A stretch of DNA of 11,135 bases from Nitrospinota bacterium (lineage in GTDB: Bacteria > Tectomicrobia > Entotheonellia > J063): assembly GCA_003696125.1 (NCBI GenBank), contig RFHZ01000490.1:1-11135 (forward strand), read 5' to 3'. Positions 1,444-10,133 of the stretch are shown here, piece after piece. Position numbers and translations under genes: made by a program. Position 1 is the stretch's first letter; the number at the start of each line of letters is the position of its first letter. Under the pieces are notes generated by a model. The model made no database searches, had not been told where the DNA came from, and was given only the letters and a program-made list of their open reading frames with translations.

Positions 1444-2850
1444 CTATTCCTGATTCATAGACTGCAGGAAGCGCTGGAACTCGGAGGACTGGTCCAGCAG
1501 TTCTGGTCCCACGGCAATGAGAGCCTGCACGGCATCAGAAGGCAGGGCAAAGCTGGTAGGGAGGTTGAGGAAGAAGTGGCGTCGCTCCTCATCCCGGATC
1601 GCCTCGAAATTCACCTCGATCACGTAGATACGTACCTGCACCGGAAAGGTGGGAAGGGGAGGACCACCCGGACAGCGCTCTTCCAGGAGGCGTTGACAGG
1701 CCTCGATCACCCGCTGGGCTTGCAGTCGCTCCCTCTGCAAGTCCTTCATCAGCTCTACGGTTTCAAAGCTATAGTTGTCCAGGCTGATCGTTGCCGTCTT
1801 GTACCCTACCGTGACCAGGCCAGGGGGACGCTCCTGCTGGCTCAGCCTTTCCTGGGGAGCGGTGCGTGCATTGACCACCAGGAGGGCAAGGGTCTCGATC
1901 TCACCGGCGTTGAGCAACATGCGGATAAAGCCGTTGCTCCGCCGGTAAGCATTCTCGATGGCCCGCAACCCGATGTTGTCGGCCAATCCTCCATCCATGA
2001 GGTGGAGGTAAGGACGACGCGTTGCGTCCAGGTAGGCGATCTGGTTGCGGGCCCAGTGGAAGCGACGCCGATTCGTCTCGTAATCCTGCAGGGCGTTTTT
2101 ATACTCGTCGGGCAGGGAGTAGTCGAGGGGAGGGGGGTAGTTCTGGAGACTGATGGGACTGAGCAGAAAGGGAAAAGCAGAGGAGGCGGCCACGGCCCGT
2201 GCCACAGGATAGGAGGAAAGATCAGAGCCGAGGAAGTCAAACTGATCCTGGGTGAACTCAAACCGCTCTCCATTGGCCAGATTGGTGGCATTCAGGATGA
2301 GGAAAGGCCGGTCCCCGCGGGCAAGCAGGTCGGCAAAGGTCTTCTGGTCAAAGATGGTGGTATGGTACAGCTCGGCTGCCAGATCGATCCGGCTAAAATA
2401 GGGAGAAAGGAGTCGAAACAGGTTGGCCGGGGAGAAGAGCTGGAGCTTGAGCTCATGCTCGATGTTTCGTTCCAGGAAGCGGGTACGGAAATCGGTAAAG
2501 AGGCGCTCGTGGAACAGCGCGTAGTAGGCAGCGGTGAAGGAGCCTCCTGATACGGCCGAGATGCAGTCCACCTCGTCTAAGAGCCGCTTTTCCTTTCCTT
2601 TCCAGGTGATCGGCGTGTCTTTCAGTTTCTGCAAGACCCCGTAGGCAAGGGCTGCGGCCCGCGTTCCTCCCCCGGAAAAGGTGAGACAGAGGAAGAGGGA
2701 GTTGGTATTCCCATCGGTGCGCAAGGCCGCGAAGCGATAGCCCTGGGTGGGCTGGTAGCGGGAGAGGGGGGCATTTAACGGGTAGTGCGCGCACCCGCTC
2801 CCTATCCAGAAGAGAAGAACACCGCTCCACAGCAGTCGCCACCCGCTCAT
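1444..2850 (-). CDS. Patatin-like phospholipase lipoprotein
   Basis: A 468-residue predicted lipid acyl hydrolase anchored to a membrane on the periplasmic side. Residues 1-20 form a lipoprotein signal peptide: a charged start, a hydrophobic stretch, then IGSGC with C20 as the lipidation site. The patatin domain follows. SGGGTRAAALAYG (59-71) is the glycine-rich oxyanion element. S101 in AVSGGS is the predicted nucleophile, with Ala in place of the first Gly of G-x-S-x-G. D286 in DGGLADNIGL completes the Ser-Asp dyad. All three elements are intact, so activity is likely; the natural lipid cannot be read from sequence. The region after about 340 is a family-specific extension. The start ATG overlaps the stop of the preceding PEGA-like gene as ATGA, with GGAGGAG just upstream, which indicates translational coupling. 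Confidence 0.9.
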   Translation of the reverse strand: MSGWRLLWSGVLLFWIGSGCAHYPLNAPLSRYQPTQGYRFAALRTDGNTNSLFLCLTFSGGGTRAAALAYGVLQKLKDTPITWKGKEKRLLDEVDCISAVSGGSFTAAYYALFHERLFTDFRTRFLERNIEHELKLQLFSPANLFRLLSPYFSRIDLAAELYHTTIFDQKTFADLLARGDRPFLILNATNLANGERFEFTQDQFDFLGSDLSSYPVARAVAASSAFPFLLSPISLQNYPPPLDYSLPDEYKNALQDYETNRRRFHWARNQIAYLDATRRPYLHLMDGGLADNIGLRAIENAYRRSNGFIRMLLNAGEIETLALLVVNARTAPQERLSQQERPPGLVTVGYKTATISLDNYSFETVELMKDLQRERLQAQRVIEACQRLLEERCPGGPPLPTFPVQVRIYVIEVNFEAIRDEERRHFFLNLPTSFALPSDAVQALIAVGPELLDQSSEFQRFLQSMNQE

Positions 2851-3077
2851 GATCTCTCCTCCCGCTTTTGCAAATGGAAGGTCACCTCACAGGGGGAGAG
2901 GGGAGAGGTCTCCTGCAGGAGGACCGTCTGCTCCAGCGGGGTGAAATTCGCAGGCGGACCCAGGGTGACGGTGTGTGTGCCCGCTTCCAGTTCGAGCAGC
3001 TCGTTGGTCCGTCCCTGAAATGCGCCATCCACCTTGACCCGGCGGGACCGGGGGAAGTGGACCAACAGATATTCCAT
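2847..3077 (-). CDS. Small PEGA-like domain protein
   Basis: This 76-residue protein has the PEGA-type pattern VKVDGAFQGRTNELLELEAG (15-34) followed by HTVTLGPP (35-42): a V-DG-x-x-x-G-T turn, then G-x-H-x-V-x-L. PEGA modules are small beta domains often found in surface or envelope proteins, where they appear to have binding or structural roles. This one has no signal peptide or membrane segment, so where it acts is unclear. I place the start at ATG 3077 because AGAGGGG sits just upstream. A TTG start at 3101 would run into the repeat element and add eight residues of repeat-derived sequence. The stop overlaps the patatin start by 4 nt, so the two are probably made together. The PEGA assignment is by pattern only. 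Confidence 0.65.
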   Translation of the reverse strand: MEYLLVHFPRSRRVKVDGAFQGRTNELLELEAGTHTVTLGPPANFTPLEQTVLLQETSPLSPCEVTFHLQKREERS

Positions 3078-3088
3078 GTACCCCTCTG

Positions 3089-3234
3089 AGTAACTTGACA
3101 ATGTTACATTTGCCTTTTACCGCAGAGCACGCCGAGGTCGCAGAGGATATTTCTGGGATGAATTGCAAAGAGACACTGTTCCTCTCCGCGTTCTCTGCAA
3201 ACTCTGCGGTGAATTTAACATTGTCGAGGTAACT
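3089..3234. mobile_element. Palindromic MITE-like element with inverted ends
   Basis: The left end (AGTAACTTGACAATGTTA, 3089-3106) and right end (TTAACATTGTCGAGGTAACT, 3215-3234) are imperfect inverted repeats sharing GACAATGTTA exactly. Inside them a second inverted pair starts with ACCGCAGAG at 3119 and ends with CTCTGCGGT at 3210, and the arms share several GCAGAG-type blocks. The element is about 146 bp, encodes nothing convincing, and would fold into one long hairpin. Palindromes with this ACCGCAGAG / CTCTGCGGT core are, to my knowledge, dispersed in many environmental bacterial genomes. A related half copy is at 6988-7046. I see no clear target-site duplication, so 'MITE-like' is descriptive and not proof of transposition. 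Confidence 0.7.
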
Positions 3235-3387: not shown

Positions 3388-3416
3388 TTCACAGATGCCA
3401 GGACATGGCGTATAAA
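3388..3416 (+). promoter_or_regulatory. Sigma70-type promoter for the selenoprotein gene
   Basis: TTCACA (3388-3393, 5 of 6 to the -35 consensus) and TATAAA (3411-3416, 5 of 6 to the -10 consensus) are separated by exactly 17 nt. A start site near 3423 would give a leader of about 90 nt to the ATG at 3513. The stretch between the repeat element and this promoter (3235-3387) holds no gene I can support. Confidence 0.65.
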
Positions 3417-3512
3417 TGTATTAGGACCGAGTAATGATGAGTTTAGGGATCGAGGAATCGATGTGGCCTGGAGGTCTTCGCCATGCACGAGGAACAGAGA
3501 AAGGAGGGAGAG

Positions 3513-4022
3513 ATGGCAGAAAAGACCAGGCAACAGTTGATCGAGGAGATCGGCATACGGGCACGCGATTACGACATGCAGTACACGGGGTGAACGCAGG
3601 CGGTTCTTGCAGCTTTGCAAGAAACGTTGTCGCTGGGAGATGGTCAGGTCTTCAAGGCAGCCACGGCGCTGGCCGGTGGGGTAGCGCGTCATGGGGAGAC
3701 CTGTGGAGCCCTGACCGGGGCGATCATGGCCATCGGGTTGGTCGTGGGGAGAGAGAGGCTGGAAGATGTCGCCCAGTACAATGCAGCCATGGCCCCGGCC
3801 GAAGAAGCCTATCTCCGCTTTCAGAAGGAGGTCGGCCATACCTGCTGTGCCGAAATCCACCGCCTGCTCTACGGCCGTACCTACCGGTTGCATATTCCGG
3901 AAGAACGCCGCGCCTTTCATGAAGCAGGAGGGCATAGCGCCACCGGCTGCCCCAGTGTCTGCGAAAAGGCGGCCCGGATCGCTGCCGATATCATCCTGCG
4001 CCTGCAGGACAGGCAGGCATGA
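3513..4022 (+). CDS. C_GCAxxG_C_C family redox protein, probable selenoprotein (TGA 3591-3593 read as Sec)
   Basis: Reading through one TGA gives a 169-residue protein, close to the usual 140-170 of this putative thiol redox family. The N-terminal helix EEIGIRARDYDMQYTG is followed by codon 27 = TGA, then TQAVLAALQETL. In Cys homologues this site reads roughly Y-N-C-A-Q-A-V-L, so TGA replaces the first conserved Cys. The rest is intact: GETCGALTGAIMAIGL with C64 in the CGAxxG motif, HTCC (C111, C112), and GCPSVC (C146, C150). AAGGAGGG lies 4 nt before ATG 3513. An in-frame ATG at 3483 (GGAGG 8 nt upstream) would add ten residues and cannot be excluded. A hairpin right after the TGA fits a bacterial SECIS. 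TGA is a normal stop in neighbouring genes and ends this one too, so general reassignment is unlikely. No signal peptide is seen, so it is probably cytoplasmic. An automatic caller would start it at TTG 3615 and lose the Sec site. The alternative is a recent nonsense mutation. Confidence 0.85.
3594..3628 (+). promoter_or_regulatory. Candidate bacterial SECIS element
   Basis: TTCTTGCA (3604-3611) pairs perfectly with TGCAAGAA (3616-3623) around the loop GCTT (3612-3615). Below one G/A mismatch, four more pairs (G3602-C3625, C3601-G3626 and two G-T) extend the stem. The loop begins with G, 18 nt after the TGA. Bacterial SECIS elements recognised by SelB lie in the coding region just after the UGA, with a G in a small apical loop about 16-37 nt away. 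The apex TTGCAGCTTTGCA resembles my memory of the E. coli fdhF apex. SelB binding is inferred. Confidence 0.75.
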
Positions 4023-4033
4023 TCTGGCCTGCC
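4012..4033 (+). terminator. Inverted repeat over the selenoprotein stop codon, possible weak terminator
   Basis: GGCAGGC (4012-4018) and GCCTGCC (4027-4033) form a perfect 7-bp GC-rich stem around an 8-nt loop that contains the stop codon. No T-run follows, so it is not a standard intrinsic terminator. It may simply slow or stabilise the transcript end. Confidence 0.3.
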
Positions 4034-4324
4034 GGGAAGAGGATTGTCTGATTGATTCACTTATCCCCTTCTTTGGGGGCTTGCTTCCTAGTCAGGGGCC
4101 CGGCTGGTTATCTCCCAGGGGAGAGGAGGCAGCAGCATCTCCGTTTTTCCCTGTGGACGGCAGTGTATAACCAGAGTTCAAAGCAAAGGGGAGAGCAATC
4201 TCCGAAGGGAGAGGTGATACTTATGTAAAGACAGGCACGAACGCCGCCCAGCCATTGACAAGCGTCTCTTCCTGTGCTAGTTTTTCTAGGGGGAAACGGG
4301 AAACGAGGTGGAAGAGGGATATCG
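4023..4324. other. Intergenic region without a supported gene
   Basis: I find no convincing coding frame here. It contains the second arm of the hairpin at the preceding stop, a small hairpin GGAGA-GCAA-TCTCC (4190-4203) with a GNRA loop, and a similar purine-rich stretch ending ATCTCCG at about 4119-4143. A promoter lies at 4255-4283. I recognise no known riboswitch or RNA family. Confidence 0.5.
4255..4283 (+). promoter_or_regulatory. Sigma70-type extended -10 promoter upstream of the membrane protein gene
   Basis: TTGACA (4255-4260) is a perfect -35. After 17 nt comes TAGTTT (4278-4283), only 3 of 6 to the -10 consensus but preceded by TGC, which gives the extended TGn motif. The start site would be near 4290, about 35 nt before the ATG at 4325. 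It would serve the membrane protein and the lipoprotein behind it. Confidence 0.5.
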
Positions 4325-7937: not shown

Positions 7938-7963
7938 CCTCAGCGCACCACCTCTCCCTGTTG

Positions 7964-7992
7964 GATATAACACAAACCGGCTGGGGATGCAA
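7964..7992 (-). promoter_or_regulatory. Putative promoter for the enoyl-CoA hydratase gene
   Basis: On the minus strand, TTGCAT (7992-7987), a 17-nt spacer and TATATC (7969-7964) preceded by TGT form a plausible extended -10 promoter. The -35 is weak (TTG only). The predicted start near 7957 gives a leader of about 95 nt. Confidence 0.4.
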
Positions 7993-8005
7993 GCCCATAG
8001 GCGTC

Positions 8006-8034
8006 TTGACCTGGGACGACAGGTTTGCTACGTT
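8006..8034 (+). promoter_or_regulatory. Putative promoter for folP
   Basis: TTGACC (8006-8011, 5 of 6) and TACGTT (8029-8034) are separated by 17 nt, with TGC directly before the -10. The layout matches the promoter at 4255-4283. A start near 8041 gives a leader of about 30 nt with GAGGAGGGG before the ATG. Confidence 0.45.
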
Positions 8035-8071
8035 GAGGAGGCGGGTGAAAGAACAGAGAGGAGGGGTTCGC

Positions 8072-8899
8072 ATGGCTATCGACTGCAGGCAGGAAACGAA
8101 GATCATGGGCATCTTAAACGTTACGCCCGACTCCTTTTATGACGGTGGGAAGTATCAGGACCCTGAGCAGGCCGTAGCGCATGGACTGGCCCTGGCCGCC
8201 GCAGGGGCGGATATCATCGATATCGGTGGGGAATCGACGCGTCCTGGTGCTCACTATATCGATGAAGAGGAGGAGTTACGACGCGTCATGCCGGTGATCG
8301 AGCGTCTCGTCGATCAGGTGCAGGTGCCGCTGAGTGTGGATACCCGCAAGGCAGGGGTGGCCCGGCGGGCCATTGCCGCCGGGGTGCAGATCGTTAACGA
8401 CGTTTCTGCCCTGCGCAGCGATCCCCGGCTCGCTCCCCTCATCGCCGAAAGCGGGGTCTCTGTGGTGTTGATGCACATGCAGGGCGACCCGCTCACCATG
8501 CAGCAAAACCCGACCTATACCGATGTGGTAGAGGAGATCCTGGCCTTCTTCCGGGAGCGGATCGCCTATGCCCTTGCCCAGGGCATCTCCCCGGAGCAGA
8601 TCATCATCGACCCGGGGATCGGGTTTGGCAAACGCCTGGTCCACAACCTGGAGATCCTGCGTCATCTCCCCCGCTTTCGCCAGCTCGGCTTTCCCGTCAT
8701 GCTCGGCCATTCTCGCAAGGGATTCATGTACAAGGCGCTGGGACTCCCCCCTGCTGAGCGGCTGGCTCCCACCATCGCCATTGCCGTCCTGGCCATGCTC
8801 CAGGGGGTGAACATCCTGCGGGTACATGATGTCAAAGAGATGGTCCAGGCCCGCAACATGATAGCCATGATCCTCGATCCTGGCAGGCGTCCCCGGTGA
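8072..8899 (+). CDS. folP: Dihydropteroate synthase
   Basis: A 275-residue cytoplasmic enzyme of folate synthesis that joins p-aminobenzoate to 6-hydroxymethyl-dihydropterin pyrophosphate. All hallmark segments appear in order: MGILNVTPDSFYDGG near the N-terminus, ADIIDIGGESTRPGA, PLSVDTRKA, IVNDVSAL, VVLMHMQGDP, IIIDPGIGFGK, MLGHSRKGFM and RVHDV near the end. These cover the pyrophosphate loop, the pterin pocket and the pABA/sulfonamide site (S-R-K). The length is normal and no key residue is missing. Start ATG 8072 has GAGGAGGGG with about 5 nt spacing; the frame is open further upstream but that part is promoter. No other folate gene is adjacent; it is divergent from the hydratase and its stop is 6 nt from the convergent stop of the PLP enzyme. 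Confidence 0.97.
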   Translation: MAIDCRQETKIMGILNVTPDSFYDGGKYQDPEQAVAHGLALAAAGADIIDIGGESTRPGAHYIDEEEELRRVMPVIERLVDQVQVPLSVDTRKAGVARRAIAAGVQIVNDVSALRSDPRLAPLIAESGVSVVLMHMQGDPLTMQQNPTYTDVVEEILAFFRERIAYALAQGISPEQIIIDPGIGFGKRLVHNLEILRHLPRFRQLGFPVMLGHSRKGFMYKALGLPPAERLAPTIAIAVLAMLQGVNILRVHDVKEMVQARNMIAMILDPGRRPR

Positions 8900-8905
8900 G
8901 GGCTG

Positions 8906-10078
8906 TCAGGCACCTGCCGCCAGGATGCTCTTCAGGCGTTCGGCAATCACCTGCTCTTCCCCCTCGTTCAGGGTCTGTACATTCACGGCAAAGGTGTCCG
9001 GACCATCCTCCTCGTACATGCGTACCCAGATCGGGGGATTGCCCGCAGCCAGGGTCTCCAGAATGGTGGCCGCATCTTTTCCCACCACGGACTGGTCAAC
9101 GGTGATCCGCAGGCCGTAGGAGGGACCGACCGGCGGGGCAGTGGGCAGCGAAACCTTCACCCCCGGCAGATCCTGCACCGCCTGCGCGATCACCTGCATC
9201 TTGTCCCTGAGGACACGCAGGCGTTCCTCATGATCGATGGAGAACCAGAGTCGCAGGGCAGCAACCACTCCGATAACCTCTTGCCGGTCGACCTTGAGGG
9301 GACGGCCAAACGGGGTGGGGAGTCCCTGCTGGTTGGCCAGCTCAAAACCGATAAATCCCTGGGCCACTGCCGCCTGCACCAGCTCCCTCTTCCCGGTAAC
9401 GATGCCGGTGGAGTGGGGGGCGCCGAAGTACTTTGCTCCAAAGCAGACCAGATCGCCACTCTGGGCCATGGCGCGGAAATAGTCGAGCGGATAGATCTGG
9501 GAAGCGGCATCCACGATGAGGGGGAGTCCCTTGCGGTGGGCGATCTCCCGCACCTGTTCCAGGGAAAGGATGTTGGATCCCCAATCCGGCTTCTGATAAT
9601 AGGCTATCGCCGCTGTCTGGGGTCCGATCCCCTTTTCCATTTGCTCCACCGTGCAACCGGTCTCATCCCCGACCGCAACCAGTTTTCCGCCGGGGATGGT
9701 GAGACAGCGGGCGTACTTGTACTGTTGCGCCTTCTGGAACACGATCTCATCCTTCATGCCGGTGGTGTCGGGCAGGCGCCCGATCTTCTCCGGGTCGGTA
9801 CCGGCAATACAGGCCGCCGCGCTGAGGGCCAGTGCTGCCGCACAGCCTGAGGTGACGTACGCCGCTTCGGTGCCCAGGACCTGGGCGATGAACTCCCCTG
9901 ACTTGGCCAGCAACTCCTCCATCTCCACATAGGCGTGGTTGGCCTGCTCCATGGCGGCGAGCACTTCAGGAGCGAGAACCGAACCGCCCAGCAGGGTCTG
10001 GTTGCCCCGTGCATTGATGCCGATGCGGACCCCGAGTTCTTCGTAGAGATTGCCGGCAACACTCTGACTTTGGGCCAT
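8906..10078 (-). CDS. SelA/DgaE-fold PLP-dependent enzyme
   Basis: A 390-residue fold-type I PLP enzyme of the group often labelled 'selenium transferase' or 'aminotransferase class V'. Visible elements are YEELGVRIGINARGNQTLLG (12-31), TSGCAAALALSAAA (76-89) for the cofactor phosphate, LIVDAASQIYPL (187-198) with D190 for the pyridine nitrogen, and K216 in CFGAKYFGAP as the Schiff-base lysine. True SelA is about 450-470 residues with an N-terminal tRNA-binding domain that is missing here. Relatives of this length include DgaE-type ammonia-lyases of sugar-amine catabolism, so elimination or lyase chemistry on a small amino acid or sugar acid is more likely. ATG 10078 is preferred to ATG 10084, which abuts AGGAAG. 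It follows the Gfo/Idh/MocA gene by 55 nt on the same strand, suggesting one catabolic operon. Confidence 0.8.
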   Translation of the reverse strand: MAQSQSVAGNLYEELGVRIGINARGNQTLLGGSVLAPEVLAAMEQANHAYVEMEELLAKSGEFIAQVLGTEAAYVTSGCAAALALSAAACIAGTDPEKIGRLPDTTGMKDEIVFQKAQQYKYARCLTIPGGKLVAVGDETGCTVEQMEKGIGPQTAAIAYYQKPDWGSNILSLEQVREIAHRKGLPLIVDAASQIYPLDYFRAMAQSGDLVCFGAKYFGAPHSTGIVTGKRELVQAAVAQGFIGFELANQQGLPTPFGRPLKVDRQEVIGVVAALRLWFSIDHEERLRVLRDKMQVIAQAVQDLPGVKVSLPTAPPVGPSYGLRITVDQSVVGKDAATILETLAAGNPPIWVRMYEEDGPDTFAVNVQTLNEGEEQVIAERLKSILAAGA

Positions 10079-10133
10079 GGTCATCTTCCTGACTCCTTAC
10101 GCTAGGGGTTGACACTATCCTGGAAGAAAGCCG

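Follow-up and report, generated by a model that had tools for sequence, protein, structure and literature searches.

Evidence for a selenocysteine-encoding UGA in a C-GCAxxG-C-C family gene of a Nitrospinota bacterium

A gene of the C-GCAxxG-C-C family, which very probably encodes a selenoprotein, was found in a stretch of 11,135 nucleotides from a Nitrospinota bacterium (contig RFHZ01000490.1, hereafter the window). The in-frame TGA at codon 27 of this gene is almost certainly a genuine selenocysteine (Sec) codon. In the mechanism that we propose, a SECIS hairpin just downstream of UGA27 would recruit SelB with Sec-tRNA, and Sec would be inserted at residue 27, where it would stand in for the first of four conserved cysteines. 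With UGA27 decoded in this way, the product would be the full 169-residue protein and not a 135-residue fragment starting at the TTG 3615. The comparison of homologues strongly supports the decoding of UGA27 as Sec, while the chemistry of the site is inferred. The features of the gene and its start are as follows.

3500..3509, + strand: Shine-Dalgarno-like AAAGGAGGGA, assigned by sequence, 5' of the ATG 3513
3513..4022, + strand: putative C-GCAxxG-C-C family selenoprotein gene, read-through translation of 169 aa with UGA27 as Sec, terminal TGA 4020-4022
3591..3593, + strand: TGA, predicted Sec codon (residue 27), aligned with the first conserved Cys of the family

The TGA at codon 27 is the only internal stop of the frame 3513-4022, which is otherwise open up to its terminal TGA. 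Without read-through, the ORF shrinks to 135 aa from the TTG 3615, the truncation that the original prediction had expected from normal gene calling. Its ribosome-binding site was likewise found intact, as AAAGGAGGGAGAG-ATG precedes 3513. A second in-frame ATG with its own GGAGG lies ten codons upstream, at 3483, and the start site is uncertain; 3513 appears the better candidate because of where the homologues begin. The ORFs flanking the Sec homologues (about 1.5 kb of flank for most) included no partner gene common with the window, and therefore the operon context gives no help.

The read-through product matched PF09719 with 85.3 bits (cut-off 27) from residue 27, which falls on profile position 3, to residue 160. 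The match to TIGR01909 (64 bits, cut-off 47.4) also begins at residue 27 and profile position 3. In an alignment of 31 homologues, four Cys/Sec positions were invariant and no others: residue 27, which is either Cys or TGA, and residues 64, 112, and 146. These results agree with the claims that the TGA falls on the first Cys of the homologues and that the later cysteines are preserved. The codons of the remaining cysteines are listed below.

3702..3704, + strand: codon of Cys64 (TGT), in the GCAxxG motif TCGALTG, invariant
3846..3848, + strand: Cys112 codon (TGT), invariant
3948..3950, + strand: Cys146 codon (TGC), fourth and last conserved Cys of the family, invariant
3960..3962, + strand: Cys150 codon (TGC), fifth Cys, present in 12/12 Sec rows and 0/19 Cys rows of the alignment

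The distribution of Cys150 makes it a possible partner for Sec27. The Sec rows with Cys150 form one clade, so its presence may go back to a single chance event.

The codon at column 27 was then compared among homologues. A first scan of species genomes gave three homologues, of which two are from Methylomirabilota (NC10) and the third is from Desulfobacterales. Their identity is 59-66%, and all three carried TGA27; the more distant matches with a readable column 27 had TGC or TGT. Further members were found with a four-row profile run against the phyla of the genomes behind these first homologues. Nine additional close relatives (L058-L060 and L071-L076) also had TGA27, and from L061 down in rank the codon was TGC or TGT. 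Together with the first three (L021-L023), TGA thus stands at exactly codon 27 in 12/12 close homologues. These come from twelve genomes other than the window's, Methylomirabilota and Desulfobacterales among them, belong to independent assemblies, and show about 50-66% protein identity. Codon 27 was the sole internal stop in the aligned close homologues, except for one in L072 at the upstream edge of the alignment. Protein conservation continued on either side of the TGA, as expected from the family-like frame described earlier, and the changes downstream of it were third-position-biased. Neither TAA nor TAG was seen at column 27 in any homologue of the collected set. Within the window's own phylum, no other copies were found in the 5 genomes searched.

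Three family homologues showed other in-frame stops. In L069 (G067:C82:43900-44376), an in-frame TGA aligns two codons off column 27 and may be a Sec position that the alignment misplaced. L085 (G512:C30), whose column 27 is TGT, and G212:C297:19848-20225 each contain an in-frame TAA and are probably broken copies or errors.

When a tree was built with the Sec column masked, the 13 rows of the window's Sec clade formed a single branch (support 96/88), and its nearest neighbor was the Cys homologue L061. A second Sec group (L062-L068, from the Methylomirabilota search) lies far away in the tree. Its proteins are distant and shorter, with the motif YHUSEAVLLAV, and have TGA at the same column 27; in their own hairpin, the loop has five bases and follows the UGA at 20 nt. 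Since L067 carries TGA, two Sec/Cys changes suffice on the tree. The simplest reading would be a Cys-to-Sec gain once in each Sec group, with the tree alone silent on direction.

The stem-loop of SECIS shape noticed behind the TGA was borne out by the comparison of homologues.

3604..3623, + strand: putative bacterial SECIS hairpin, 8 bp TTCTTGCA/TGCAAGAA, loop GCTT 3612-3615, loop 18 nt after the UGA

In twelve Sec genes of the same register, including the window, the hairpin has 6-8 bp and a four-base loop and begins at the identical position; its loop lies 18 nt after the UGA and carries G as the first or second base. L060 differs in having a six-base loop on 8 bp, and its spacing is unchanged at 18 nt. 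Published bacterial SECIS constraints are a loop of 3-9 nt, a stem of 4-16 bp, a spacing of 16-37 nt, G in the first two loop positions, and a minimum free energy of -7.5 or lower (PMC13188914). The window hairpin agrees with every one of them (4 nt loop, 8 bp, G first, 18 nt, and -15.8 kcal/mol for the 45-mer). Over the 12 Sec genes, 96.9% of cells in the hairpin structure were paired, compared to 37-57% in slid controls. Four of the eight pairs are invariant and three vary on one side only, to GU, so that change on both sides is confined to one compensatory pair (UA in 7, GC in 4). For the window, an equally stable eligible hairpin arose in 0.15% (0.0015) of random synonymous recodings of the same peptide, and for the other clade members in 0 to 21%. 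Because the hairpin is unremarkable against synonymous shuffles in several single homologues (up to 0.21), the case for a SECIS element rests on the set. The Cys homologues had no eligible hairpin at the 18-nt spacing, and a few had weaker hairpins elsewhere. A search of 3400-4100 against Rfam at a permissive threshold gave chance-level matches only.

The hairpin also bears on the reading of UGA27 as Cys, through a tRNA-Cys with a UCA anticodon or otherwise, which would make the protein a Cys form like any other. Column 27 does tolerate Cys in the relatives, but a SECIS hairpin and SelB are features of Sec decoding, and there would be little reason for the clade to keep TGA and hairpin across phyla if Cys served equally. 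We therefore regard this reading as highly improbable. Even less can be said for a pseudogene or a sequencing error, in which the TGA would be a nonsense mutation of a TGC or TGT Cys codon and the product a downstream fragment or nothing. A single base change is enough for such a mutation, and the downstream ORF with the TTG start is open. This reading is strongly disfavored because TGA27 is conserved: the same codon recurs in the 12 diverged homologues from independent assemblies and other phyla, and the third-position bias downstream of it and the hairpin are common to the clade. Its probability is close to nil.

The machinery for Sec insertion was found in the same assembly, as the reading of UGA27 as Sec predicts. 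A profile match identified selB (385.9 bits), and selA (559.8 bits) adjoins it; an overlapping selA fragment lies on another contig, so that the gene is in two pieces. The tRNA-Sec gene selC scored 74 bits and was called by ARAGORN as tRNA-SeC with the anticodon tca (UCA). The start of selD (L018:3-299, - strand) contains an in-frame UGA in the motif ACAGUASKM, which we take to be the catalytic position of SelD, and this selD is probably a second selenoprotein of the genome. Profile coverage of selD stops at position 102, and in this fragmented assembly (990 contigs, contamination 7.98) not every machinery gene was recovered whole. SelB was also above the cut-off in two of the three genomes that supplied the first homologues. 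No selB above the cut-off was found in the Sec-carrying genome G061 (2.9 Mb), which may reflect incompleteness. The original prediction had named a complete genome lacking selB or selC, homologues lacking Cys at column 27, and relatives with TAA or TAG there as observations that would speak against it; all of these were looked for, and none was encountered.

TGA terminates the C-GCAxxG-C-C gene and, as had been noted before, three other frames of the window taken as genes: 2847-3101 (- strand), 7961-8899 (+ strand), and 8906-10084 (- strand). UGA is thus an ordinary stop for several window genes, and general recoding does not explain TGA27. A genome-wide reassignment of UGA or a suppressor tRNA, which would place Trp, Gly, or another residue at position 27 with no need for a SECIS, has next to no probability: in-frame UGA is indeed not confined to this gene, as selD has one too, but the ordinary UGA stops, the Cys at column 27 of other homologues, and the presence of tRNA-Sec with the UCA anticodon together with SelA and SelB are against it. 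The frame 8906-10084 encodes a SelA-like PLP enzyme that is easily confused with selenocysteine synthase. Its nearest family is that of the DgaE ammonia-lyase (TIGR01437, 211.5 bits against a cut-off of 385.3), and the true selA is on another contig.

The structure model of the selenoprotein is all-helical with a pLDDT of 95.4. Residues 27, 64, 112, and 146 are located at or beside the starts of the helices 27-39, 65-78, 112-120, and 146-168, an arrangement that would suit a shared redox or metal site. In the VIA comparison, the best solved match to the model was 1H21 (Z 13.8 over 144 residues), followed by an entry with Z 5.1; a Z near 13 may also arise from an arrangement that is common among helical models. 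A Foldseek search of the model against the PDB gave no significant match. 1H21 is a split-Soret cytochrome c, and the title of the entry reports a novel iron centre. A profile alignment pairs Cys64 and Cys146 with cysteines of 1H21, weakly (E 0.11), and the NCBIfam split-Soret model NF047622 matches the same protein segment (E 0.004). The window protein differs from the cytochrome in having no haem-binding CXXCH, and it scored 16.6 bits with NF047622 against a cut-off of 400. Given the fold match, the Cys alignment, and the NCBIfam match, the four residues may surround an iron or iron-sulfur site; a metal-free thiol/selenol redox centre is an equally open alternative. At such a site, Sec27 would most likely serve as a metal ligand or as a redox residue of higher reactivity. 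The more specific proposal, that Sec27 is a ligand or close neighbor of a split-Soret-like iron centre with Cys64, Cys112, and Cys146, and with Cys150 as an extra partner, is tentative, and we consider it rather unlikely than likely.

The gene had been put forward as a probable new selenoprotein. The selenoprotein assignment holds, but the newness does not, since Sec members of the family are already catalogued. NCBI names TIGR01909 the 'C-GCAxxG-C-C family (seleno)protein'. C-GCAxxG-C-C proteins also appear among the prokaryotic selenoproteins of two reviews, with one form in the first (PMC9312934) and two in the second (PMC13188914). The catalogued forms 1 and 2 are MGD8741185.1, cited to an Olavius algarvensis symbiont study, and WP_012158890.1 (PMC13188914, PMC9312934); they are listed there in the same Pfam family as the window protein, with one Sec each. 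The window protein lies above the curated cut-offs of both TIGR01909 and PF09719, in which Sec or Cys occupies the first of the conserved positions, and is distinguished by its particular Sec clade, its length of about 169 aa, and the extra Cys150. Two further NCBIfam models are related in sequence and far below their cut-offs, namely the DVU_1555 family C-GCAxxG-C-C protein (NF045669, 42 bits, cut-off 103) and the HUGP/GUXX-star fusion selenoprotein (NF045501, 34.6 bits, cut-off 325). The window gene is therefore a well-supported further member of a family already known to have Sec members.

Sec at the family's first Cys is kept across the window's small phylum, Methylomirabilota, and Desulfobacterota, and it recurs at this position in the second, distant Sec group. 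Because standard gene calling truncates such proteins, Sec forms readily escape notice in metagenome assemblies. The conservation of Sec flags residue 27 as chemically important in a family without an assigned function. If Sec27 does lie at an iron centre, the family would harbor a metal or iron-sulfur site that contains selenium, instead of being a plain thiol/selenol redox protein.
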